In this document: piece after piece, positions 2,443 to 24,946 of the stretch
Position numbering within the stretch: the stretch's first letter is position 1
How the letters are laid out: each line of letters begins with the position of its first letter
The notes under the pieces: model-generated
Told to the model about the DNA's origin: nothing
The model's input: the letters and a program-made list of their open reading frames with translations, nothing else
Databases searched by the model: none
Translations under genes and position numbers: made by a program
DNA from: Ignavibacteriales bacterium
GTDB lineage: Bacteria > Bacteroidota > Ignavibacteria > Ignavibacteriales > Melioribacteraceae
Length of the DNA: 64,000 nt
Assembly: GCA_026390795.1 (NCBI GenBank)
Contig: JAPLFG010000005.1
Span: 162,200-226,199 of the forward strand
Reading direction: 5' to 3'

Positions 2443-4050
2443 TTAAAATCGTTTCGAAAGTGTAAAATATATTCTGCTAAAAGTGGCTGTATCTTGGAAA
2501 GTACTCTCATAGCTTGCTGATATGTACATTGTATTAAACATTCTCATCGCTAGATCGATGTTTCCAATTTGCTGAAAAAAATTAAATTGGCCGGACGGAA
2601 ATTTATAATCAATTCGTTTATAGCCAATGCCAAAATTCATCACACCATTAAACAAATCCTTCGAAAGACTGGCGCCATAGTAATTACCGTTAACATAACC
2701 GGATTCAATTTTATTATAGTTTATATAAAGAGATGAATAAATTAATGGCATTTGGAAATAACTCAGATTAACTCCATAATTTTTAGATGGTCGCGGATCA
2801 TCTTTACTGAAACGGTATCCATAGTTTATGCCAACCCAGATATAATTAAGCGGGCGCAGATTGAGTCTTGCTGAAAATCCTTGCCGAGTGGCCGATTCCA
2901 AAACACTATCCGCAAATGTTTTGAACGTTTCATAATAGATCACATTTTTACGCGCGTCATAAGAAGCGCTTAGTCCAATCCAGCTGCTTGGATTGTAAGA
3001 ACACATTGTAAAGAGACTCGTCATATCGAAAGTGTTTTGGTTAATTCCCATTTTTCGTTTGAAAAGATCGAACTCAGACGAGACAAAAAATCCTAAACTT
3101 TGAGATAAATTATTCGAATGCTGAAAGTAAAGAAATCTTCTATCTGTTTTGAAATTGTTAGTCTGTTCAAAAACTCCTACTGTATTTTGCATTGTAATAC
3201 TGCCGAGGCTATCACTTCTGAAAATATAACCGCCATACTCAAACATTTTTAGATCATAGCCATAATCAGAAAAACTTGGATGCGAGCCTGCTATCACTCC
3301 AAATACAAACTTCTTTGCTGTCGTCTCAAATTGAAGTCCGTCAATCGCTCCGAGACTTGATGTTTTGAAATTGATTTTTCTTCCCAATGTAATTTTTGTT
3401 GTTGAAGTAAAATCATATCTAAAAGCAAAGTCATATATTTTCAGTGCATTCCCTAAATTACTTTTAACTTCGTTCCATTTATCTGCGCGGTAAGAAAAGT
3501 TAACGTAAGAAGAAAAAAAGATTGGAGACTCAGCAATCGTATCGGCATTAAATGAAAGGTTCATCCGCCAATATTGAAAATCCGGCGAGCTTGGCCCGTT
3601 AGATTTATTAGTATATGATGATATTGAAATATTCCCATTAGTACGCTTGAAGAATTTGGAAGAGCTTTTAATCGATCCAATAATAGGAGTTACTGAAACT
3701 TCTTCTGATGGACTCTTTATTATTTCTCTATTCTTTTCATTGTTTAGTAATGGGCTCTTTTTTATAAATGCTTTTACTTCTTCATTAATTTTGAGTTTGT
3801 AACTAGATAGAGCAACACCGGAACAAGAGTTTGACGAGATAAACTGAACAACGATTGCAGGTTTTAATATACCGCTTACGGACAGATATAAAGTATCGTT
3901 CTTATTTATTCCATTAGTACTTTCAAACCGGACATAAATATTTTGCGAAGTCACGAATGAAATCCGGCCGGTCTTCTCATCTACACTAATATTCTGTGCG
4001 TTTAGAAGAAAAGCGCTAATCAGTATAAGGATAAGAAAACTTTTATTCAT
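2443..4050 (-). CDS. outer-membrane beta-barrel of the multiheme operon
   Basis: A 535-residue protein with a signal peptide (MNKSFLILILISAFLLNAQ). About 110 residues follow with a beta-rich domain, then a long stretch of alternating polar/aromatic strands (for example YGVNLSYFQMPLIYSSLYINY), and the C-terminus ends in S-K-R-F. A final phenylalanine is the usual insertion signal of outer-membrane barrels. It is the last gene of a five-gene operon, 3 bases after the 40-heme cytochrome gene. I infer that it is the porin sheath of a porin-cytochrome conduit carrying electrons across the outer membrane. I do not recognise it as a member of a named porin family (such as MtrB), and the assignment rests on fold-like pattern and context. 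Confidence 0.7.
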   Translation of the reverse strand: MNKSFLILILISAFLLNAQNISVDEKTGRISFVTSQNIYVRFESTNGINKNDTLYLSVSGILKPAIVVQFISSNSCSGVALSSYKLKINEEVKAFIKKSPLLNNEKNREIIKSPSEEVSVTPIIGSIKSSSKFFKRTNGNISISSYTNKSNGPSSPDFQYWRMNLSFNADTIAESPIFFSSYVNFSYRADKWNEVKSNLGNALKIYDFAFRYDFTSTTKITLGRKINFKTSSLGAIDGLQFETTAKKFVFGVIAGSHPSFSDYGYDLKMFEYGGYIFRSDSLGSITMQNTVGVFEQTNNFKTDRRFLYFQHSNNLSQSLGFFVSSEFDLFKRKMGINQNTFDMTSLFTMCSYNPSSWIGLSASYDARKNVIYYETFKTFADSVLESATRQGFSARLNLRPLNYIWVGINYGYRFSKDDPRPSKNYGVNLSYFQMPLIYSSLYINYNKIESGYVNGNYYGASLSKDLFNGVMNFGIGYKRIDYKFPSGQFNFFQQIGNIDLAMRMFNTMYISASYESTFQDTATFSRIYFTLSKRF

Positions 4051-4053
4051 TTG

Positions 4054-7023
4054 TTAATTCTTTCCAGTTGGATGACAGTTGTAACAAGCCGTTGATAGAT
4101 AAACATAATTATTCACACCGCTATGCTTTGAGTTCATTGATGATTGACTATGCTCATGACAATTAATACACTCAAACACTTTATAGTTTGTTTGGTTTGT
4201 ATGGCAATCGGTGCATAGAGTCCACTTACCTCTATGCTCACCGGAATAGATTGGGAAATACTGTCCATCATGATTAAATGTTGAAGGCTTCCAAGCATTT
4301 TGTGTATGGCATTGCTCACAAGTAAGTGGAAACTTAGCCGTCGCATGATTTGGATTAGTCACGCTATTGTAATCCGTTAAATGGCAGCTTACACACTGCG
4401 GGTGTTTAGTATTATAATTACCCGCATGACAGTTCGAACATTGGTTTGCAATTTGCAAATGCGCTCCAAGAATTTGATAGTAATTATTATGAATAGGAAA
4501 TGTTGCTGGTTTCCATCCTGCATTCGTTGTATGGCATTGTTCGCATGTAGTAGGAATATTAATAGCTGCATGATTTGGATTAGTAGTACTTTGAAAATTT
4601 GTTGTGTGACAGCTCGAACAAACAGTGGATGTTCCTTTCAATGTTGTTGTATGACAATTATTACAGTTTACTGAAGTGTGCGCACCGGTTAATGGGAAAG
4701 CAGTCGTCGCATGATCAAATGTTGCTCCTTGCCATGATGTAGTAGTATGGCAAGCTTTGCAGTCTGTTGGGTAAGATTTCGAAACATGATCGGGCGCAGA
4801 AATAAATTTTGCTTGATGGCACGAATAACAATCAGTTGAAGTTCCAACATAACCATTGGAGTGACAGCTAATGCATGTTACAGATACATGTGAACCTGTC
4901 AAAGGAAACTTTGTTGTAGCGTGATTAAATGTTACGCTCTTCCAGTCAATTGTGTTGTGGCATTGCTCGCAAGTTTGCGGATATCCTTGCGAAACATGAT
5001 TTGGTGCTGCAGTATATTTTGATTGATGGCATGAATAACAAAGTGTCGGTGTTCCTGCAAATCCAGATGCATGACAAGAACTACATTGAACCGTAGTATG
5101 ACTTCCTACTAACGGGAATTTAGTTAATGCGTGATTGAATGTTACGCTCTTCCAATCTGTTGTATTATGGCACTGTTCGCAAGTTTGAGGATATCCTTGA
5201 GAAACGTGATTTGGTGCCGCCGTATATTTTGATTGATGACATGAATAACAAAGTGTTGGCGTTCCCGCAAAGACCGATGTATGACATGAATTACATTGAA
5301 CGGTAGTATGACTTCCGACTAACGGGAATTTAGTTGTTGCGTGATTAAATGTTACGCTCTTCCAATCAGTTGTGTTGTGGCATTGTTCGCAAGTTTGCGG
5401 ATATCCTTGAGAAACGTGATTTGGCGCTGACGTATATTTTGATTGATGACATGAATAACACAACTTAGATGTTCCTGCTAACTTAGTAGTATGACATGAA
5501 CTACAATTAACTGTTGCGTGAGCGCCTAAAAGCAGAAAGTTAGTTGACGTATGATTAAAACTAATTTGTTTCCAGTTCGCAGGAGAATGGCACTGTTTAC
5601 AATCTTGCGGATAATTTTGCGCACTATGGTTTGGTGCAGATGCGAAATTATTCAGATGACACGAAACGCATTGAGTAGGAGTTCCGGCATAACTTGTTTG
5701 ATGACATTGTGAACATGCTACAGTTGTATGCGCGCCAATCAACGGGAAATTTGTTAGTGAATGATTTATTCCACCGTCTTTGGATCCTCTTGGGTGGCAT
5801 GTATAACAAACATTACTTTGATAAGCATATCCATTAACACCACTGTGCTTAGAATCCATATCTGTTTTTGCGTGTTCATGGCAATTAATGCATTCAAACA
5901 CTTTGAAATTAGATTGGTTCGTATGGCAGTCAGAACAAGTATTCCATTTGCCGCCATGATTTCCGGAATAGATCGGAAAATATTTATTGTCATGATCAAA
6001 AGTTGACGGCTTCCATCCAGTTTGTGAATGACAAGTTGTACAGTCAGTTGAGAATTGTGCCGATTTATGATTTGGATTTACTGTAGCATCATAATTCTGC
6101 TGATGACAGCTTACACATTGTCTCGCGGTTTGATTATAGCCCATAGAGTGACACTTCATGCAATCATTTCTAATTAAGTTATGAGCTCCTAACAATGGAT
6201 AAACAAGATCATGATTAACAAAAGAAGCCGGTTTCCAAGAACCTGCACTTATTGTGTGACATTGCTTGCAGTCTTTTGAGAAATTTAACTTCATATGATT
6301 TGGCGAAGGAACAAATTCATAATTTGTCTGATGGCAAGTGTAACAATCTTGCGATAAACCTTTGTAACTTCCTTGAGAATGGCAAGTGAAACAATTTGCT
6401 ATGTTATGAGCGCCGGTAAGCGGAAAGAAATCATGCGTAACTGAAGTTGCAGACCAGCTGAATGAAGTAAAATTATGACACTGCTGACAGTCAGTAGAAT
6501 AATTTGCTTTTATATGACTCGGGTTTTTTGTCGCAGCATATGTCGCAGCGTGGCAATCGTAACATCTAATACCAAGTGGTTCAAACTTCAAACTGGAAGC
6601 TAATCTATGACATTGCTGACAATCGGCTTTAGCATGATTACCAAGCAATGGAAATTTCCCCATCCGGTGTAGATCAATTATGTTTTCTATAATCCAAGTT
6701 CTTGAATCATGACAACGAACGCAATTCTTACCAACAGTATTCTCATGAATATCCGTATGGCAATCAGAGCAATTGTCCTTCCCTTTTTTATCACTGAAGA
6801 CAAGACTTTCATGGCAAGCAGTACACTTAACAATTTGATGCTGCCCTTTTAATTCAAATCCGGTTTCGCTGTGACGAAAAAGAATTTTGGCAGGATTTAC
6901 AGTCCATCCGTCAACTTTATGACAGTCTTGGCAATCACGTTTAAAATTTTTCCCGTGCGGAGATTGCCCGTTACATACAGAAAGTGATAATAAAATTAAA
7001 ATTGCTAATGACAGAGAGCGCAT
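4054..7023 (-). CDS. 40-heme c-type cytochrome
   Basis: A 989-residue exported protein with a signal peptide (MRSLSLAILILLSLSVCNGQ). I count 40 CxxCH heme-attachment motifs, about one per 25 residues, spread from residue 31 to the C-terminus. Between them are regularly placed histidines (FNH.TT.FPL.GSH and PNH patterns) that can act as distal ligands, so most hemes are probably bis-histidine and low potential. Five repeats of exactly 70 residues lie in the middle, three hemes each. A four-heme cap module occurs twice (about residues 325-420 and 900-989). It starts inside the 3' end of the 20-heme gene (19-bp overlap; GGTGAGG before the ATG) and is followed by the barrel gene. Probable role: long-range periplasmic or extracellular electron conduction. 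Confidence 0.9.
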   Translation of the reverse strand: MRSLSLAILILLSLSVCNGQSPHGKNFKRDCQDCHKVDGWTVNPAKILFRHSETGFELKGQHQIVKCTACHESLVFSDKKGKDNCSDCHTDIHENTVGKNCVRCHDSRTWIIENIIDLHRMGKFPLLGNHAKADCQQCHRLASSLKFEPLGIRCYDCHAATYAATKNPSHIKANYSTDCQQCHNFTSFSWSATSVTHDFFPLTGAHNIANCFTCHSQGSYKGLSQDCYTCHQTNYEFVPSPNHMKLNFSKDCKQCHTISAGSWKPASFVNHDLVYPLLGAHNLIRNDCMKCHSMGYNQTARQCVSCHQQNYDATVNPNHKSAQFSTDCTTCHSQTGWKPSTFDHDNKYFPIYSGNHGGKWNTCSDCHTNQSNFKVFECINCHEHAKTDMDSKHSGVNGYAYQSNVCYTCHPRGSKDGGINHSLTNFPLIGAHTTVACSQCHQTSYAGTPTQCVSCHLNNFASAPNHSAQNYPQDCKQCHSPANWKQISFNHTSTNFLLLGAHATVNCSSCHTTKLAGTSKLCYSCHQSKYTSAPNHVSQGYPQTCEQCHNTTDWKSVTFNHATTKFPLVGSHTTVQCNSCHTSVFAGTPTLCYSCHQSKYTAAPNHVSQGYPQTCEQCHNTTDWKSVTFNHALTKFPLVGSHTTVQCSSCHASGFAGTPTLCYSCHQSKYTAAPNHVSQGYPQTCEQCHNTIDWKSVTFNHATTKFPLTGSHVSVTCISCHSNGYVGTSTDCYSCHQAKFISAPDHVSKSYPTDCKACHTTTSWQGATFDHATTAFPLTGAHTSVNCNNCHTTTLKGTSTVCSSCHTTNFQSTTNPNHAAINIPTTCEQCHTTNAGWKPATFPIHNNYYQILGAHLQIANQCSNCHAGNYNTKHPQCVSCHLTDYNSVTNPNHATAKFPLTCEQCHTQNAWKPSTFNHDGQYFPIYSGEHRGKWTLCTDCHTNQTNYKVFECINCHEHSQSSMNSKHSGVNNYVYLSTACYNCHPTGKN
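4711..5760 (-). repeat. 210-bp in-frame tandem repeat (5 units) in the 40-heme gene
   Basis: Matching landmarks recur at 4711, 4921, 5131, 5341, 5551 and 5761, exactly 210 bases apart; each unit starts near an A/GTGAT(T/C)AAAT sequence. Every unit encodes 70 residues with three CxxCH motifs. Units at 4921-5130, 5131-5340 and the first half of 5341-5550 are nearly identical at DNA level, pointing to recent duplication or gene conversion, while the outer units have diverged. Such arrays can change copy number by slippage or recombination, and they are easy to collapse in short-read assembly. Confidence 0.9.
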
Positions 7024-8591
7024 TTTACCTCACCAAATTTGTACTTGATGTATTTTCCTTTCTCATCAACTACTTGTTTGTGACATTTGTAACAATCTAC
7101 TTTAGAATGCGCTCCGCTTAATGGAAATAATGTATTGTTATGATCAAAGAGTTCCGGCTTCCAATTATTAAATTGGTGACAACTCTGGCATAAAACAATA
7201 CCATTTTTTGTGAACTGTCCTGCATGAATGTCCTTATGACATTCAACGCATTCTGATTTTTTTGTAAAATAAATATTAACGCTATTAATACTTTTATTAC
7301 TCGTGTGACATTTAGTACAACTTTGTTTTTGGTGAACACCCAATAAAACAAAATTTGTTTTGTTATGGTCAAAATTTACTTCATTCCATTTTTCTGTTGT
7401 GTGACATGCCGTACAACTTTTTTCTCCGGTATATTTAACCGGAACCGACCCGCCATGAACATCTTTGTGGCAATCAATGCAATCTCGTCTCTCGATTTTG
7501 AAATTCCATTTTTCATTTTTTTTGTGGCAGCTTTGGCAAGGTATGGCTAAATGAGCACCATTCAGAATAAAACTACTCTTTAAGTGACGCTCAATTGTAT
7601 AAGATGTAAAATTAAATCCATCAAGCGAATGACATGAACTGCAATCAGTTTGATATCCATTCTTAGTGAACTCTCCTTTGTGATAATCTGAATGGCAGTC
7701 AATACATTTTTCAAATTTTGGCTTGGTGTTTAAACCGTTTTTATGACATGCCTTACAATCAACTGAAGTGTGTTTCCCCAGCAAAGGATAATTTGTTTTT
7801 CCATGATCGAAGCTTCCCAAATTCTTAATAACATGAAATGATTCTGTAACGTGACAGGTTGCGCACTTATCTCCAAACTTGCCTTTATGAAAATCCTTGT
7901 GGCATGAAGCGCATGAAGAAAATTCGATTCCATTGAACCGCTGGAAATTTTTCCCATTTTTAGTTTCGATTGAATGGCATTTGATACACTCAACTTTTTG
8001 ATGCGCGCCTGTTAAATCATACTTTGTAGAACTATGATTAAATTTTGGTGCCGGACGGAAAGCATCTGTTCCATGACAATTCTGACAGCTGTTTCCCAAA
8101 CTTCCTTGATGAGAATCTTGGTGGCAAGAGTTACATGAAGTCTTTAATCCTAAAAATGTTCCCTTGTGTTTCTTGTATTTCGCGTCCGCCATAAAATCCG
8201 GCTTATGACAATCGAAACAATCTATTTTACCATGCTTACCTGTAAGTTGAAACGATGTTTTGGAATGATCAAACGTCTTGGGATTGATATTAACAATTCT
8301 AAAATTTCTTCCGTGATGTTCACTATGGCATAGAACGCAATTTTTATTTCTTACGTCAGAGCTTGAATGGAATCCCTTATTTTCTTTTTGCAGTTGAGAT
8401 ATTTCTGAATGGCAAGCCAGGCATTCATTATTGCGCACCTGACTTCCAATATTATGGCATTTTGTGCAATTGCTCATTCCCTCTAAATGAGAATGAAGAG
8501 CAGACAAATCTCCGGGAGAAATCTGTCCCAATAACTTTGAGTACAGAGTTACCAAGAATAATATTATAAATGTTAGTCTTGATGTTTTAAT
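7005..8591 (-). CDS. 20-heme c-type cytochrome (ATT start proposed)
   Basis: A protein of about 528 residues with 20 CxxCH motifs. The recurring unit is CxxCHxDxHxGxF, then CxxCH....W, then FDH..T.F.L.G.H....CxxCH, whose extra histidines suit bis-histidine ligation. A conventional start would be TTG at 8555, which cuts the leader in half. Reading upstream in frame gives IKTSRLTFIILFLVTLYSKL, a good signal peptide beginning at an ATT codon (8591) with AGAGG just ahead. I therefore place the start at ATT, overlapping the oxidoreductase gene by 19 bases. The protein stops directly after its last heme histidine (CALCH-stop), part-way through a repeat unit, where the 40-heme gene begins. Likely a periplasmic electron carrier array. 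Confidence 0.85.
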   Translation of the reverse strand: MKTSRLTFIILFLVTLYSKLLGQISPGDLSALHSHLEGMSNCTKCHNIGSQVRNNECLACHSEISQLQKENKGFHSSSDVRNKNCVLCHSEHHGRNFRIVNINPKTFDHSKTSFQLTGKHGKIDCFDCHKPDFMADAKYKKHKGTFLGLKTSCNSCHQDSHQGSLGNSCQNCHGTDAFRPAPKFNHSSTKYDLTGAHQKVECIKCHSIETKNGKNFQRFNGIEFSSCASCHKDFHKGKFGDKCATCHVTESFHVIKNLGSFDHGKTNYPLLGKHTSVDCKACHKNGLNTKPKFEKCIDCHSDYHKGEFTKNGYQTDCSSCHSLDGFNFTSYTIERHLKSSFILNGAHLAIPCQSCHKKNEKWNFKIERRDCIDCHKDVHGGSVPVKYTGEKSCTACHTTEKWNEVNFDHNKTNFVLLGVHQKQSCTKCHTSNKSINSVNIYFTKKSECVECHKDIHAGQFTKNGIVLCQSCHQFNNWKPELFDHNNTLFPLSGAHSKVDCYKCHKQVVDEKGKYIKYKFGEVKCALCH

Positions 8592-9919
8592 ACCGCCTCT
8601 CCGTATTTTTTGGTGATCCTGATTCCGGCTTTAGTTAGAAACTCATTAGGAAGTTCTCCGCCAGCCAGAATGAATACTAAATCATTTTTGATTTCTTTTT
8701 CTAAAGTAATACCATCTTTTTCAAACATTATTTTAACTGCTTTCTCGGAAATAGACGTTACATTGGATTTAAATATGATGTCAATTTTTCTTTCATCCAC
8801 AGCGTTTTTAATATTCTCAAAATTCTTCGGCTTAAGTCTAGAAAATGAATCACCTCTATACGATATTGTAATTTTATTATTTCCTTCCAACAATGCAAGT
8901 GCGGCTTCGATTGCAGAATCTCCGCCACCAACAACCAAAACATTTTGAATGCTTATCAATTCCGGCTCAATAAGTCTGTATGATACTTTTTCCAATCCTT
9001 CCCCTTCAACACCCAACTTTCTTGGAGTACCGCGGCGTCCAATTGTCAATAGGACCGCGTTTGCTGCAACTGTCCTTTTATTCGTTTGAACAACAAAATG
9101 ATCTTCATGCTTTTCAATAGATAGAACTCTTTCATTCTCTTGAATTGAAATATTATTCTTCGTTAATACTTCATTCCAGAGTTCTAATAATTCCGTTTTT
9201 GTTATCTCTGTGTATTTGACTTTTCCATACAAAGGAAGATGCATTGGCGCAGTCATAATTATTTTCTTTCTCGGGAACGAATAGACTGTCCCGCCTAGAC
9301 TATCTTGTTCAATCGTAATTGATCTCAGTTCTTTTTCTTTAGCCGCCAGAGATGCCGAAATTCCAGCCGGGCCTGCGCCAACAATTACAATGTCATATTC
9401 AGATTTCGGAACGCGCGATAAATTTTTAGCAATATTATCAACTGCTTGCTTGCCTTGTGTTACAGCATTTTTAATTAAACCCATTCCGCCAAGTTCTCCG
9501 GCAATAAAAATTCCTTTTACATTCGTTTCGAATTCATGGCTTACATGAGGAAGATCGACACCTCTTTTTTCAGTTCCGATTACCAGAGAAATAGCACCAA
9601 CCGGACATGAATGAAAACATGCACCATGTCCAACGCATCTGGAAGCGTTAATTGTCGCGGCCTTTCCATCAATCAATCCAAGTATATCTTTTTCCGGACA
9701 AGCAGCAACGCAAGCAGCACTGCCAAGACAAACATCCAAATTTACAACCGGATGAAGAGATACCGGTTCGTGAAATCCAAGTTGTTTGGCTCTCTCAATC
9801 TTATCCTTAACCGTTCTAGATTGATTCTTACTTTTTCTTAACTGGAAGTAGATCAGTATAACAATCAATATCACAACCACAGAGTAAGTAATAATATTTT
9901 CTATCAATACTTCCATCAA
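8573..9919 (-). CDS. membrane-anchored ferredoxin-FAD/NAD(P) oxidoreductase
   Basis: A 448-residue protein. One N-terminal transmembrane helix (about residues 9-26) anchors it. A ferredoxin-like domain follows, with cysteines 64, 70, 74 and 95, 101, 105, each ending in CP. Next comes a thioredoxin-reductase-like flavoprotein: the FAD site is GAGPAG (181-186) and the second dinucleotide fold is VVGGGDSAIEAA near 325, which should bind NAD(P)H. There is no redox-active CxxC in the flavoprotein part. The second cysteine of each canonical CxxCxxCxxxCP motif is replaced (S and H). It probably feeds electrons from NAD(P)H or ferredoxin to the b-type cytochrome encoded 10 bases upstream and onward to the multiheme proteins. 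The direction of flow is inferred. Confidence 0.8.
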   Translation of the reverse strand: MMEVLIENIITYSVVVILIVILIYFQLRKSKNQSRTVKDKIERAKQLGFHEPVSLHPVVNLDVCLGSAACVAACPEKDILGLIDGKAATINASRCVGHGACFHSCPVGAISLVIGTEKRGVDLPHVSHEFETNVKGIFIAGELGGMGLIKNAVTQGKQAVDNIAKNLSRVPKSEYDIVIVGAGPAGISASLAAKEKELRSITIEQDSLGGTVYSFPRKKIIMTAPMHLPLYGKVKYTEITKTELLELWNEVLTKNNISIQENERVLSIEKHEDHFVVQTNKRTVAANAVLLTIGRRGTPRKLGVEGEGLEKVSYRLIEPELISIQNVLVVGGGDSAIEAALALLEGNNKITISYRGDSFSRLKPKNFENIKNAVDERKIDIIFKSNVTSISEKAVKIMFEKDGITLEKEIKNDLVFILAGGELPNEFLTKAGIRITKKYGEAVLKHQD

Positions 9920-9929
9920 AAGATACCTG

Positions 9930-10793
9930 TTAAAATATCCAGCTGTAACCGAACGCTACTGTAATTCCAACATGAAGAACCATAATCAGAAGCATTACAA
10001 TTGCAAACGGAAGATGAATTATATGCCAATAACGGAACATTTCTTGTACAGAATTGAGCAAACTAATTTTACGTGAAAGTATCAATTTTGATTTACTGAT
10101 TGCAACTATTTGATTAATAGATTTTTCTGATATCTTCTCGCTTCTCAAATGAGTCTTCAATTCATTTAGGATCTTCTTATTTGCCATGTGATCTTTGATT
10201 GTGAGAGGAATGATTGAGAATAAATTTGGGGACTTATAAACTTTTAACGATGCAAAGTGTTCCAACTTTTTCAATAAAGAATTATCCATGTTGAATTCGT
10301 TTTTCAATTTTTCACCAAAAGAATGGTTCAACATTTTCAGTTCTTCCATAGAATATTCATTTCCTCTTATTGAACGGGGAATCTGAACATAGATAAATCT
10401 TCCAATGACACCGCTAATGACAACCGCTACCATACTCCAAAAACTTAACGCTACAATTCCACCAAACTTAAATGCGGTATGGAATAAGACCAGAACAGGA
10501 CCCAAACTACATAAAAAAATATGCAACTCAAGCCAATTTTTTATCGCCCCTACTCTTGCAAATGATTTCAGTCTCTTTCTAAACATGTATAAAACTACGC
10601 CCACCAACATCATTAGCGAACCAATAATTCCTAAACCATGACCAATAATTCCGCTTGGTTTTAAGATAGTGTGTGAAGGATGGAAGAATCTTTCTTCGTA
10701 GGGTGTGAGATAATAACTGTAGCCGGAATAACCTAAATACACAAATGCCGCAATTCCAAAAAGTAAGTAAAGCCAATGTTGTAGTTTAGTCAT
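9930..10793 (-). CDS. b-type membrane cytochrome, first gene of the electron-transfer operon
   Basis: A 287-residue integral membrane protein. Hydrophobic helices lie near residues 5-25, 46-70, 88-110, 115-137 and 260-283. Membrane histidines at 91 and 105 (14 apart) and at 260 and 274 (14 apart), with H52 and H257 also near helices, suggest two heme b sites, as in b561/NarI-like quinol oxidoreductases. A soluble loop of about 100 charged residues separates the two halves. It is followed closely by the FAD/Fe-S protein, so I infer that it passes electrons across the inner membrane between that protein (or quinol) and the periplasmic multiheme cytochromes. It has no close named family that I can state with certainty. 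Confidence 0.65.
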   Translation of the reverse strand: MTKLQHWLYLLFGIAAFVYLGYSGYSYYLTPYEERFFHPSHTILKPSGIIGHGLGIIGSLMMLVGVVLYMFRKRLKSFARVGAIKNWLELHIFLCSLGPVLVLFHTAFKFGGIVALSFWSMVAVVISGVIGRFIYVQIPRSIRGNEYSMEELKMLNHSFGEKLKNEFNMDNSLLKKLEHFASLKVYKSPNLFSIIPLTIKDHMANKKILNELKTHLRSEKISEKSINQIVAISKSKLILSRKISLLNSVQEMFRYWHIIHLPFAIVMLLIMVLHVGITVAFGYSWIF

Positions 10794-10989: not shown

Positions 10990-11760
10990 CTATAACTTAA
11001 ACAGGAAAAATATTCCTAGGGCAGTCAATGCTAAACCGTACCAGCGTTCCAAAATGTTGGCCTTAGATTTAATTGCTACTTTGGCTCCTAAGAGTGAAAA
11101 AGGAACAGAGCCGAGTGCTAAGACGCCCGTTACCATCCAATCAATATGACCAAGATATGAATGAACTATCGTTCCGGGTAGAGCTAGAAAAACAGATACC
11201 GCCAATGAACATGCGAAAGCTTTTTTTATTTGTAGATGTAATATTCTTGCATAACTTGGCGCCAATAAAAATCCACCAGAGTTTGCCAAGAGTCCGGAAA
11301 TCAAACCGATACTAATTGCAACGATAATCAATCTAAGCCGCCAAAAACGTGGACGATTACCGAATTCTCCAGCAGTTACAACTGGTTCATTCTCTCTTTC
11401 TTTTGGAAAAAGAAGAAAACTTAAACCAAACACGAGAACCATCAATCCGGTTAAAACCAACAGCGGTGTAGCACCGGTAAATTTGGTTAAATATGAGCCG
11501 ACAATTGTTGCAGGCACACCAAAATAAAGACTCCATAAAACAATTTGTTTATCCAGAAGATTTGATTTCCAATATTCAACAGAAGCAATTAAAGTACCGG
11601 GCACTGTAGCCGGCAGTGGAGCGGCTACTGCAATAAATCCCGGTACTCCAATCAAATGAAGCATCGGTGTAGCTATGGCACTGCCACCTTTACCGAAAAG
11701 TCCGCCAAGAAAACCAACTATTATTCCAATAAGAAAAATTCCAGCGTAATGAAGAACCAT
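10990..11760 (-). CDS. TauE/SafE-family permease
   Basis: A permease of about 256 residues with roughly eight hydrophobic helices in two related halves; each half opens with a glycine-rich segment (IGIIVGFLGGLFGKGGSAIATP and ISIGLISGLLANSGGFLLAP), the hallmark of the TauE/SafE family. Members export sulfite, sulfoacetate or related organosulfur anions, but the family is broad and the substrate here is unknown. GGAG sits 7 bases before the ATG at 11760, so this is preferred over the TTG directly before it. It lies 196 bases upstream of the cytochrome operon on the same strand, with no gene between, so a link to that operon is possible but not shown. Confidence 0.8.
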   Translation of the reverse strand: MVLHYAGIFLIGIIVGFLGGLFGKGGSAIATPMLHLIGVPGFIAVAAPLPATVPGTLIASVEYWKSNLLDKQIVLWSLYFGVPATIVGSYLTKFTGATPLLVLTGLMVLVFGLSFLLFPKERENEPVVTAGEFGNRPRFWRLRLIIVAISIGLISGLLANSGGFLLAPSYARILHLQIKKAFACSLAVSVFLALPGTIVHSYLGHIDWMVTGVLALGSVPFSLLGAKVAIKSKANILERWYGLALTALGIFFLFKL

Positions 11761-11863
11761 CAATTACTCCTATCAAGATCATTCTGTATTGTAAATAGAT
11801 TTATGCTGAATAGAATTGTTAATAAATGAATGTAGATAAAGATAACCAGTTCAAATTCTTTCT

Positions 11864-22834: not shown

Positions 22835-24946
22835 ATGTTCCGAAGATTTACAACTTTAGTCTTTATTTTAGCATTGGTGAGCACTTCGCTTTTTGCACAG
22901 ACACTCACCGTTACACCGTACGGAGTAACAGCACGCGGTGTAGCAGTTTCAGCAACTGATATTTATACTTATCCTTATTCTGGCTTAACTAATGTCGGCA
23001 TTGGAACACTATGTTATTTTGAAGCTTCTTTTACAGGTAAACATTTTACAACACCAACATGGACATTAACACGTATAGCCCCTGGTTCAAAATCTGCAAT
23101 CGGTGCAGTAAAAGATCTAAAAAATGATTCTACTCAAGTAATTACTTTTACACCTGACAAACAGGGAATTTATGAAATAACTTTTACTGATGGAGCTTAC
23201 ACAGGATCAGTTACAATAAATGCGGCTAAGTATGTAGGTGTTTATAATACAGTAATTAATGGAGTTGACACTAAACTACAATGTAAAACTTGTCACTCTG
23301 ATAAAGTTGCAGATTGGGAAGGAACAAATCATGCAACCATGTTCACAAGAGCAATGAATGGAACACCTGGCCTCAGCGGTCCGGCAGATCACTATTCTGC
23401 AAGTTGCATTAGTTGCCATACAACAGGTTATGATGCAAATCCAACAGCTATAAACGATGGTTTTGACGATCAGACATTTACTTTCCCAACTGTTCTCGGT
23501 GCAGGTGGTTACGATAAAGTAGTTGCGGCATTTCCAGCAGCAGCACAGAGAGCTAATATTCAATGCGAGACTTGTCATGGACCTGCTAGCGGACATCTTG
23601 GAGACACATCAGATTCAAGAATGGTTGCAACTTTCGATGCAGCTGTTTGCGCATATTGCCATGATTCTGGAACACACCACATCTTCCCAGAACAATTTAA
23701 TGGTTCTTACCATGCAATTGCAGTAAATGAAAGCGGCCCAGGACGCGAAGCTTGCGTTCAATGCCATACTGGAAAAGGATTTGCTCAATATGCAGATGGC
23801 GTTCCAACAACTGATCCTTATTTCGATGCTTCTTATACACCTATAACATGTGCAGCTTGCCACGATCCTCATAGTTCAAAAAATGAATTCCAATTGAGAA
23901 AAGTTGATGCATATATACTTACCGCTAATGCTACTACCCCAACCAGCCCAATAAAGAAAACCGTTGCAGAAGCCGGGATGGGAACAATGTGTCTTAACTG
24001 CCACATTTCAAGAACAGAAGCCACCCAAGCATTGGCTTCATCAATCACTAGCCGTTTTGGTCCACATCATGGTCCACAAGGCGACATTTTGTTATCAAAT
24101 AATATGTTAGAATTAGGCGGAGTTAAATTAGGAGTAAGTAATCATAAAGGCGCCACAGTTGACGCATGCGTAAGATGCCATATGTATAGCGGTAATGCTG
24201 TTATTGGTACTACCGTAATGCAGTGGGGTGGTCACTCATTCAGCATGAGTACCCATAAGAAAGGCCCGGATGGACTTTTCTTACTTGATGCTGATGGAAG
24301 AAGAATTCCAGATCAGGATAATATGGAAGCTTGTGCTCAATGCCACGGTTCGACTTTCGGTACAAGTTTTAGTGAAGTTAAATTCTTCTACAATGGTACA
24401 GGCGATCTTGATAACAACGGAACAATTCAAGGATTGCAAGATGAAGTAGCTGGTATGATTGCTAAAATCTTTGCTCAAATGCCAAAAACATCAACTGGTG
24501 CTATGGCTACACCAAGTTCAAGCTGGACAACAACACAATTGAAAGCTTTTTGGAATGCTACTACAGCTCAAGAAGATAAGAGCGGTGGTATTCACAATCC
24601 AAAATATGTTGTTTCTGCATTGTTAGGAGCTATGAAATCTTTAGGTATTGCAACTGCAGTTGAAAAAGAAGAAACTGTTCCAACTCAATATGTTGTTTAT
24701 CAGAATTATCCAAATCCATTCAATCCAACAACAAACATTAAGTTTGCTTTACCAAATAGCGGCCATGTTAAATTAACAATTTATGATGCTATTGGTAGAG
24801 AAGTTGAAACTCTTGTTAATAGTGATTTAGTTGCTGGAACACACAACGTAGAATGGACAGCTAAGAATATGGCTTCCGGTATTTATCTTTATAGAATTGA
24901 AGCAGGCAATTTTGTAAAAGTTAACAAAATGCTTCTTGTAAAATAA
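22835..24946 (+). CDS. nine-heme c-type cytochrome with type IX sorting domain
   Basis: A 703-residue secreted protein. Signal peptide (ending in L-F-A-Q), an Ig-like beta domain (about 25-145), then a heme domain with nine CxxCH motifs between about 150 and 500. The last 85 residues are a type IX secretion C-terminal domain: NYPNPFNPTTNIKFALP, a T-I-Y-D segment, and SGIYLYRIEAG with K-M-L-L-V-K at the end. That domain directs export across the outer membrane and attachment to the surface. The heme part resembles multiheme domains of nitrite/hydroxylamine-type and tetrahaem families in its CxxCHGP and CHDPH contexts, but I cannot name an enzyme. Likely a surface electron-transfer protein. It has its own promoter and terminator, so it is monocistronic and possibly highly expressed. 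Confidence 0.9.
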   Translation: MFRRFTTLVFILALVSTSLFAQTLTVTPYGVTARGVAVSATDIYTYPYSGLTNVGIGTLCYFEASFTGKHFTTPTWTLTRIAPGSKSAIGAVKDLKNDSTQVITFTPDKQGIYEITFTDGAYTGSVTINAAKYVGVYNTVINGVDTKLQCKTCHSDKVADWEGTNHATMFTRAMNGTPGLSGPADHYSASCISCHTTGYDANPTAINDGFDDQTFTFPTVLGAGGYDKVVAAFPAAAQRANIQCETCHGPASGHLGDTSDSRMVATFDAAVCAYCHDSGTHHIFPEQFNGSYHAIAVNESGPGREACVQCHTGKGFAQYADGVPTTDPYFDASYTPITCAACHDPHSSKNEFQLRKVDAYILTANATTPTSPIKKTVAEAGMGTMCLNCHISRTEATQALASSITSRFGPHHGPQGDILLSNNMLELGGVKLGVSNHKGATVDACVRCHMYSGNAVIGTTVMQWGGHSFSMSTHKKGPDGLFLLDADGRRIPDQDNMEACAQCHGSTFGTSFSEVKFFYNGTGDLDNNGTIQGLQDEVAGMIAKIFAQMPKTSTGAMATPSSSWTTTQLKAFWNATTAQEDKSGGIHNPKYVVSALLGAMKSLGIATAVEKEETVPTQYVVYQNYPNPFNPTTNIKFALPNSGHVKLTIYDAIGREVETLVNSDLVAGTHNVEWTAKNMASGIYLYRIEAGNFVKVNKMLLVK

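Follow-up and report, generated by a model that had tools for sequence, protein, structure and literature searches.

A candidate PCC3-like electron conduit that includes an NAD(P)H module, encoded by a five-gene operon of Ignavibacteriales and other Bacteroidota

Introduction

How might electrons travel from the cytoplasm to the outer face of a cell whose operon combines 60 heme-binding sites, a membrane-anchored flavoprotein and an outer-membrane barrel? The question is raised by a locus of an Ignavibacteriales bacterium (Melioribacteraceae; assembly GCA_026390795.1), which lies on the minus strand at positions 2443–10793 of a 64,000-nucleotide stretch of contig JAPLFG010000005.1 (positions 162,200–226,199), hereafter the window, in whose coordinates positions are given. 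A preliminary description, made from the letters of the DNA alone, had proposed a complete route from NAD(P)H to the outer membrane, with the porin-cytochrome conduits MtrCAB and Geobacter Pcc as precedents. The actual precedent, which that description did not name, is the PCC3 cluster of He et al. (2017; PMC5566968), described from Alpha-, Beta- and Gammaproteobacteria, in which a porin and an inner-membrane protein accompany two giant multiheme cytochromes (MHCs; medians of 34 and 21 hemes). We report that the operon is probably a PCC3-like conduit across the whole cell envelope with a cytoplasmic NAD(P)H module of its own, a reading drawn from motifs, domains and gene order.

Results and discussion

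A tight operon with 60 heme-binding sites

All five open reading frames (ORFs) are present where they had been placed, and they and the parts within them read as follows:

9930–10793, minus strand: inner-membrane b-type cytochrome (cytochrome b), 287 aa, with two WX3HX13H motifs (residues 87–105 and 256–274) and S127-G-V-I-G131, which fit the signature of the PCC3/PCC4 inner-membrane protein (PMC5566968)
8573–9919, minus strand: membrane-anchored flavoprotein, 448 aa, with an N-terminal transmembrane (TM) helix, a two-cluster ferredoxin and an FAD/NAD(P) domain of the YpdA or thioredoxin reductase (TrxR)-like ferredoxin–NADP reductase (FNR) kind, apparently circularly permuted, without a redox CXXC
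7005–8591, minus strand: 20-heme periplasmic-type c cytochrome, 528 aa from a putative ATT start at 8591, or 516 aa from TTG 8555
4054–7023, minus strand: 40-heme c cytochrome, 989 aa, with a conserved N-terminal start and C-terminal cap and, between them, tandem three-heme units of ~70 aa
4714–5133, minus strand: two three-heme units (6 hemes; residues 631–770 of the 40-heme protein), absent from the closest relative, locus L076
4913–5505, minus strand: DNA tandem array in the 40-heme gene, made of 2.8 copies of a 210-bp unit (70 aa, three hemes) with 85% matches
2443–4050, minus strand: outer-membrane barrel, 535 aa, with an N-terminal beta domain (about 23–97), a low-confidence linker (100–132), a 22-strand barrel (137–535) and a C-terminal Phe

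The 989-aa protein contains 40 CXXCH motifs and its neighbour 20, with no CX3CH or CX4CH in either. These numbers are far above those of 500 shuffles of each protein (means of 0.54 and 0.24, largest 4 and 3, respectively), and the 60 sites described earlier are thus confirmed. With 83 and 44 histidines, the 40-heme and 20-heme proteins could supply each of their hemes with a second His ligand; methionines number only 7 and 2.

The genes are closely packed, with gaps of 10 bases between cytochrome b and flavoprotein and of 3 bases between the 40-heme and barrel genes, and with the start of the 40-heme gene overlapping the end of the 20-heme gene by 19 bases. A second 19-base overlap that had been described, between the flavoprotein and 20-heme genes, holds only if the latter starts at ATT 8591, which it probably does. 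Its only ATG, GTG or TTG start is TTG 8555, which leaves a very short N-terminus (MVTLYSKLLGQ), while translation from ATT 8591 gives IKTSRLTFIILFLVTLYSKLLGQ, which could plausibly be a signal peptide, and GGAGAGG lies in front of this start. The ATT is kept in five of five relatives checked and GGAGAGG in four, which proves little because the same stretch codes for the end of the flavoprotein.

Distribution and gene order

A scan of a species-level genome collection returned 579 stretches that encode relatives of the cytochrome b, the best 80 of which were kept as loci. In a sample of the phylum, 39 of 395 genomes, this one included, matched at E below 1e-50 and 54 at 1e-5. Together these matches rule out that the system is unique to this genome, where cytochrome b occurs once. 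Its spread is patchy, in that three of the four other genomes of the genus match and nine of the 21 others of the family. Metagenome-assembled genomes of Stygiobacter, Melioribacter, Saprospiraceae, Bacteroidales and Prolixibacteraceae are among the carriers in the best 80 of 579, and none of these 80 is titled as Proteobacteria. Two carrier records, Maribellus sediminis and Labilibaculum sp. K2S, are not marked as metagenome-assembled, and in the cultured Emticicia oligotrophica DSM 17448 the full set is on plasmid pEMTOL02, its two cytochromes having 23 and 40 hemes; the set is therefore not limited to metagenomes. Searches of plasmids with the barrel and the 40-heme protein gave matches only in Emticicia.

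We mapped 122 loci (the window, L031–L071 and L076–L155). Leaving out L069 and L070 (weak cytochrome b matches, a different system), L058 (cytochrome b lost in ORF selection) and six duplicates gave 113 distinct loci, of which 79 were informative for gene order once the 34 that end within 9.5 kb were excluded. The preliminary description had named absence of the gene order from relatives as evidence against it; such absence was not found, since all five parts are kept in 70 of these 79 loci. They stand in the order cytochrome b–flavoprotein–20-heme cytochrome–variable cytochrome–barrel (order A) in 55 loci, and in 15 with the flavoprotein gene last (order B). Seven loci are partial or rearranged, all with a flavoprotein, and two are of other kinds; the flavoprotein is thus found in 77 of the 79. 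In most order-A loci it follows cytochrome b directly, or with only a tetratricopeptide-repeat (TPR) gene between. Nine of the 15 order-B barrels are too diverged to be labelled from a single sequence; a barrel profile nevertheless finds a match in each of the 15, at E 0.0011 in L066 and at 2.7e-8 or lower in the other 14.

The TPR gene (~200 aa, with a TM helix) follows cytochrome b in 32 of the loci listed, duplicates included. The one copy scanned gave TPR matches, including a sub-threshold match to the CcmH/CycH TPR, and the Emticicia plasmid operon sits behind a ResB/CcsA cytochrome-c synthase gene. Both genes probably help in cytochrome maturation.

Two further neighbourhood results may be given here. 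A TauE gene (10990–11763) was considered as a sixth member of the operon and rejected, as only the window has it immediately ahead of cytochrome b; the TauE-type gene of L105 sits one gene farther off. When the two genes on either side of the operon were inspected by eye in nine relatives, no substrate-specific enzyme and no iron-uptake gene stood out.

Heme numbers mostly change in steps of three

The two cytochromes behave differently across the loci, each copy being assigned to the 20-heme or the variable (40-heme) class solely by which of the two query proteins it scores higher against. Among 93 distinct complete proteins of the 20-heme class, 71 carry 20 hemes and 18 carry 23; the remaining four have 10, 10, 15 and 19, both 10-heme rows being the split gene of L095 and the 15-heme row one fragment of a gene that is split in L041. 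The variable class (85 distinct copies, including two rows perhaps from another system, L045 with 10 hemes and L064 with 9) ranges from 9 to 64 hemes, with a median of 28. Of the 85, 68 fit 10 + 3n hemes (a remainder of one on division by three) and 17 do not (13 divisible by three, four with remainder two). The binomial p is nominally 1e-18, a value not to be taken at face value because related loci are not independent. Measured from each heme to the third one after it, the median distance is 73 residues, with 2195 of 2239 distances inside 62–82.

The array can be seen in the DNA of the window as 210-bp units, two adjoining ones having 89% identity at the DNA level and 93% at the protein level. 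In L076, the closest relative (cytochrome b 95% identical), the large cytochrome has 34 hemes and matches the 40-heme protein at 777 of 849 aligned residues; the length difference is a 140-residue gap of exactly the two units and six hemes listed above, besides which there is only a two-residue gap. By eye, the N-terminal start and C-terminal cap recur in most variable cytochromes listed, and the middle differs. We infer that the variable cytochrome evolves by gain and loss of three-heme blocks in its middle. A near-constant 20-heme protein fits a section of fixed span, such as the periplasm, and a variable one fits a section free to vary, as it would be outside the cell. Searched against solved structures, the 40-heme protein gave no match at 1e-5.

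Four operons contain two variable cytochromes each: L141 (22 and 39 hemes), L148 (25 and 61), L154 (25 and 13) and L045 (19 and 34). Such pairs would fit a duplication of the outer wire.

The membrane cytochrome and the flavoprotein

The label 'b-type cytochrome' of the preliminary description comes from motifs rather than a database family, Pfam giving nothing above threshold and only a sub-threshold DUF4405; the motifs themselves fit well. Two WX3HX13H occur in 106 of the 113 distinct homologues, two HX13H in 112 and SGxxG in all 113 (a simple pattern, which also matches a second place in the window protein), and the complete pattern, in its order, is present in 104. The four histidines and the SGxxG of TM4 are invariant in a 19-row alignment. 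Simple hydropathy yields windows at 53–71, 88–130 (overlapping) and 263–281, which we read as four helices; an N-terminal fifth, the number that the PCC3 protein has, lies below threshold. A profile of cytochrome b found no match among solved structures at E up to 1.

The flavoprotein, whose nucleotide-binding part Pfam assigns to Pyr_redox_3, is the component that sets the operon apart. Its ferredoxin clusters are C64-S67-C70-C74P and C95-H98-C101-C105P. Because all six cysteines of the protein fall in the ferredoxin domain, disulfide reductase chemistry of the YpdA/TrxR-like kind is not expected. The His that replaces the usual cluster Cys at position 98 is invariant (24 of 24 rows, counted by eye); at position 67, the same 24 rows show Ser in 15, Cys in 8 and Thr in 1.

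The best solved relatives of the FAD/NAD(P) part are YpdA/Bdr (7a7b, E 5.5e-48), thioredoxin reductases and TrxR-like ferredoxin–NADP reductases, and positions 1–269 of the 316 of TIGR04018 match at 9.8e-52, which covers the two-domain FAD- and NAD(P)-binding fold; the score of 175.7 bits does not reach the curated cut-off of 339.9. In the best structure rows the match ends 50–60 residues short of the C-terminal ends, and a segment with the last FAD-binding-type motif (TNV.GI.IAGELGG...) precedes the GAGPAG Rossmann motif. Alone, that segment gives weak matches to thioredoxin and glutathione reductases (best E 0.16, three of four rows at the last motif); as a nine-row profile, it matches the last motif in seven of seven rows, all glutathione reductases, at E 0.002–0.01. 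The flavoprotein is probably circularly permuted, its last FAD-binding segment moved to the front. Such a flavoprotein at the core of the operon suggests that the conduit is directly coupled to NAD(P)H.

The outer-membrane barrel

The preliminary description had noted an outer-membrane barrel with a C-terminal Phe (it ends ...SKRF) and had named failure to fold as a porin as evidence against its reading; the fold prediction shows no such failure. An AlphaFold2 model from a 43-row alignment (mean predicted local distance difference test score, pLDDT, 83.9; predicted template-modelling score, pTM, 0.62) has 22 strands, counted by hand, after the small N-terminal beta domain, and aligns with solved outer-membrane barrels, mostly TonB-dependent receptors and also ushers and porins, with no special relative among them. 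The 50 rows listed by VIA-align are mostly TonB-dependent receptors, headed by 5fp2_B (Z 19.8, rmsd 4.4, 345 aligned); MtrB does not figure among these 50, which is no evidence in either direction. Foldseek places MtrB (6r2q_B) at rank 23 (E 6.7e-8, TM 0.36/0.31), no better than unrelated barrels. These matches to a model show a barrel fold, not a specific relative. The barrel has no Pfam match at E 0.01 and no NCBIfam match. A C-terminal Phe closes 57 of 63 distinct barrels labelled by similarity; that of Emticicia ends in K.

A proposed electron path and its alternatives

We suggest the following path. NAD(P)H would pass a hydride to the FAD of the flavoprotein, which would split it into single electrons through the two Fe–S clusters, as the domains imply. 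By motif and topology, the electrons could then pass to two b hemes of cytochrome b, for which its four conserved histidines would be the ligands, and so cross the inner membrane. The 20-heme protein, its nearly fixed length suited to a fixed gap, would ferry them over the periplasm to the 40-heme protein, which may thread or dock on the 22-strand barrel and extend outward, with a length free to vary by the block gain and loss seen against L076. The route drawn in the preliminary description follows from the parts present, and each of its electron steps is inferred from them.

The likeliest net direction is outward. Electron flow from the cytoplasm to the outer face spends membrane potential and does not build it, and redox balancing or a surface reductase is therefore at least as likely a purpose as energy-conserving respiration; general bioenergetics favours the former two, unless quinones take part. 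Fe(III) as the acceptor is only a guess. The genome contains two COX1-family genes over the cut-off (a family that also holds NO reductases) and other multiheme clusters, and thus probably has several electron outlets. Tentatively, and with distinctly less confidence than in the conduit itself, we propose a trans-envelope wire that NAD(P)H would drive without quinones, in effect an 'NADPH oxidase' with its far end beyond the outer membrane, that would be widespread in Bacteroidota and would join a fixed 20-heme periplasmic section to a modular outer section of 10 + 3n hemes, a natural length series.

A number of observations tell against a PCC3-like, NAD(P)H-fed conduit. Two informative loci, L042 and L061, lack the flavoprotein, and in a few relatives (L091, L139) no cytochrome genes lie close to those for cytochrome b and flavoprotein. 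Structure prediction for a 13-heme relative (L089) gave a poor model (mean pLDDT 56.4), and insertion of the cytochrome in the barrel thus gains no structural support. Membrane proteins of proteobacterial plasmid modules (see below) are only 21–24% identical over 74–79% of the query (E 2e-7 to 4e-3). Nor do published data demonstrate a role for PCC3 itself: in Sideroxydans ES-1 its two clusters were lower on Fe(II) (PMC8788666), and a proteome table gives its large cytochrome, Slit_1448, a value of 0 in each of the eight columns displayed (PMC12016527). The data also accommodate quinone exchange at cytochrome b, as He et al. propose for PCC3.

That last point leads to the strongest competitor, a quinone-linked PCC3 in which cytochrome b would exchange with the menaquinone pool, the flavoprotein would be a side branch (e.g. 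for NAD(P)+ or ferredoxin reduction from the b hemes) and flow could be inward, from an external donor. It draws on He et al. (PMC5566968), who propose that an inner-membrane protein of this kind exchanges electrons with quinones, and on the 15 order-B loci, where the flavoprotein gene is last and not beside cytochrome b. However, the near-universal presence of the flavoprotein (77 of 79), usually next to cytochrome b or the TPR gene in order A, speaks against this reading, and inward flow to NAD(P)+ would be uphill except from very low-potential donors; on balance we consider this reading unlikely. Less probable again is a cell-surface ferric or oxygen reductase following the logic of NADPH oxidases (NOX) and ferric reductases (FRE), which would serve iron uptake, detoxification or surface chemistry, not respiration. 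Two HX13H heme-b pairs on two helices also mark the ferric-reductase/NOX domain (PMC5566968), and export of cytoplasmic electrons would be electrogenic in the dissipative direction. No iron-uptake gene, however, stood out by eye in the nine neighbourhoods. The two COX1-family genes, and the cultured carrier Emticicia, an aerobe, would suit a surface reductase; FRE and NOX enzymes are nevertheless single proteins, not known to come with 60 hemes and an outer-membrane barrel. Finally, the giant cytochromes could be mainly a charge or heme store, a capacitor, beside an unrelated porin, and such roles have been proposed for large cytochromes (PMC7399161, PMC10734462); yet a pure store needs no barrel, and the barrel stays an operon partner in 70 of the 79 informative loci, which leaves this the least credible of the alternatives by a wide margin.

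If the PCC3-like conduit with its NAD(P)H module is the right reading, the locus bears on how electrons enter such conduits. The PCC3 type was named in 2017, and as late as 2025 a paper that reports two copies of strain CL21 expressed above the mean describes the complex as functionally unverified (PMC12442390). A Bacteroidota version with an explicit NAD(P)H-type core module would make the point of electron entry testable on purified proteins, and heme numbers that run mostly in steps of three (10 to 64) offer a natural series for relating wire length to rate and reach.

Other electron-transfer genes of the genome

Elsewhere in the window (22835–24946, plus strand) a 703-aa cytochrome with nine CXXCH carries a type IX secretion C-terminal sorting domain and is apparently sent to the cell surface by that system; a search of the accessible papers for type IX secretion together with multiheme cytochromes found none. 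Another contig of the genome (C3) has a second cluster (L156:1916–19037) with a twin-arginine translocation (Tat) ferredoxin, NrfD, a 13-heme and a 19-heme protein, a b561-type membrane protein, a 16-heme protein (with a sub-threshold formate-dehydrogenase-gamma-like domain), a 4-heme protein, a putative 422-aa barrel, and a 14-heme and a 9-heme protein. On the same contig (L157:4002–8480), Rieske and cytochrome b/b6 genes are followed by 9-heme and 6-heme proteins, perhaps a bc-type complex in which multiheme cytochromes replace the usual c1.

Comparison with known systems

A literature search, mainly of titles and the starts of abstracts and with few subscription papers, found no description of the five-gene set, nor a flavoprotein as core part, a Bacteroidota distribution or the three-heme step.

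MtrCAB receives its electrons from a CymA-type quinol oxidase. With MtrCAB and MtoAB the operon shares a barrel and multiheme cytochromes, which here too would span the outer membrane; it differs in its predicted 22-strand barrel without PF11854, its 20 and 40 hemes, and an entry made of a b-cytochrome and a flavoprotein. The earlier view that no Mtr or Pcc homology is recognisable largely holds. No protein of the genome matches PF11854 (MtrB/PioB) at E 0.001, and an MtrA-like identity was rejected, the MtrA/DmsE-family model TIGR03508 giving 60.2 and 45.9 bits on the two cytochromes against a cut-off of 192.2, and 87.0 and 95.8 bits on two other large cytochromes of the genome, so that the scores are generic. 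But both cytochromes, at 47.5 and 32.2 bits, do clear the cut-off (30) of PF22113 (MtrC/MtrF domain II/IV), a match that is likewise generic because it also passes on the 703-aa protein of the window, the 14-heme protein of L156 and a 7-heme protein of L072.

Porin-cytochrome (Pcc) systems have been reported from Ignavibacteria too (PMC4245776, PMC7399161), and the operon has the porin-cytochrome idea in common with those of Geobacter (OmbB-OmaB-OmcB) and Ignavibacterium album (IALB_1837–1840), the cytochrome of the latter having 400 aa and 14 hemes (PMC4245776). We considered whether the window operon is this Pcc and rejected the idea, since L156 contains a separate pair, a 402-aa 14-heme gene adjoining the 422-aa putative barrel, sized like that of I. 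album; set apart by gene sizes, and not by IALB sequences, the window operon is probably a different system. Large cytochromes have precedents as well: the largest of Ignavibacteria in one survey have 40 and 33 motifs, and CXXCH-domain indels were noted in a Burkholderiales cluster (PMC7399161), while Gallionellaceae have cytochromes of 21, 24, 27 and 10–35 hemes with long linear models (PMC10734462).

Compared with YpdA and thioredoxin reductase, the flavoprotein has the same two-domain FAD/NAD(P) fold but stays below the curated cut-off, with an apparently altered domain order and no redox disulfide. NOX and FRE enzymes resemble the operon in their two HX13H bis-histidine heme-b pairs and in the cytoplasmic NAD(P)H flavin chemistry that we predict here; the operon differs in having another flavin domain, on a separate polypeptide, and a 60-heme wire and barrel beyond the membrane. 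Pfam found no ferric-reductase membrane or flavin domain in cytochrome b or the flavoprotein.

Proteobacterial plasmids hold smaller modules of a reductase (annotated 2Fe-2S), a membrane protein and a 7-heme cytochrome, in Alteromonas, Sphingobium, Methylophaga and, by position, Bradyrhizobium. Their membrane proteins have two or more HX13H in four of four cases and one WX3HX13H in four of four. They share the kind of membrane protein and a cytochrome c3-type partner, but have no annotated barrel, a small cytochrome and another reductase family, the Alteromonas reductase, the one whose domains were scanned, being of the FAD_binding_6/NAD_binding_1/Fer2 type of NAD(P)H reductase. On the Alteromonas macleodii plasmid (L072:9935–21265), a NiFe hydrogenase with its maturation genes follows the module at a short distance downstream. 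A porin-less group resembling these modules is mentioned by He et al. (PMC5566968). The Alteromonas reductase hints that pyridine-nucleotide input may recur.

The closest likeness is to PCC3, judged by the published description and the motif signature rather than by comparison of PCC3 protein sequences. Both are clusters of a porin, a larger and a second multiheme cytochrome and an inner-membrane protein. The PCC3 inner-membrane protein has about 300 aa, five TM helices, SGXXG and two WX3HX13H, its cytochromes have 22–39 residues per heme (median 26), quinone exchange is hypothesised and one case reaches 85 hemes (PMC5566968). Our cytochrome b is of like size and motifs, the medians of the two cytochrome classes are 25.8 and 26.6 residues per heme, and one cytochrome varies in size and contains repeats; giant size, inner-membrane protein and size variation are thus already known for PCC3-type systems. 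The differences lie in the carriers, here Bacteroidota-type genomes (Ignavibacteria, Bacteroidales, Saprospiraceae, Emticicia and others), the frequent TPR gene, heme numbers mostly in steps of three and, above all, the flavoprotein, which does not figure in the accessible text of the PCC3 description (PMC5566968). As it is present in 77 of the 79 loci, we regard the operon as a variant of PCC3 rather than a plain member.

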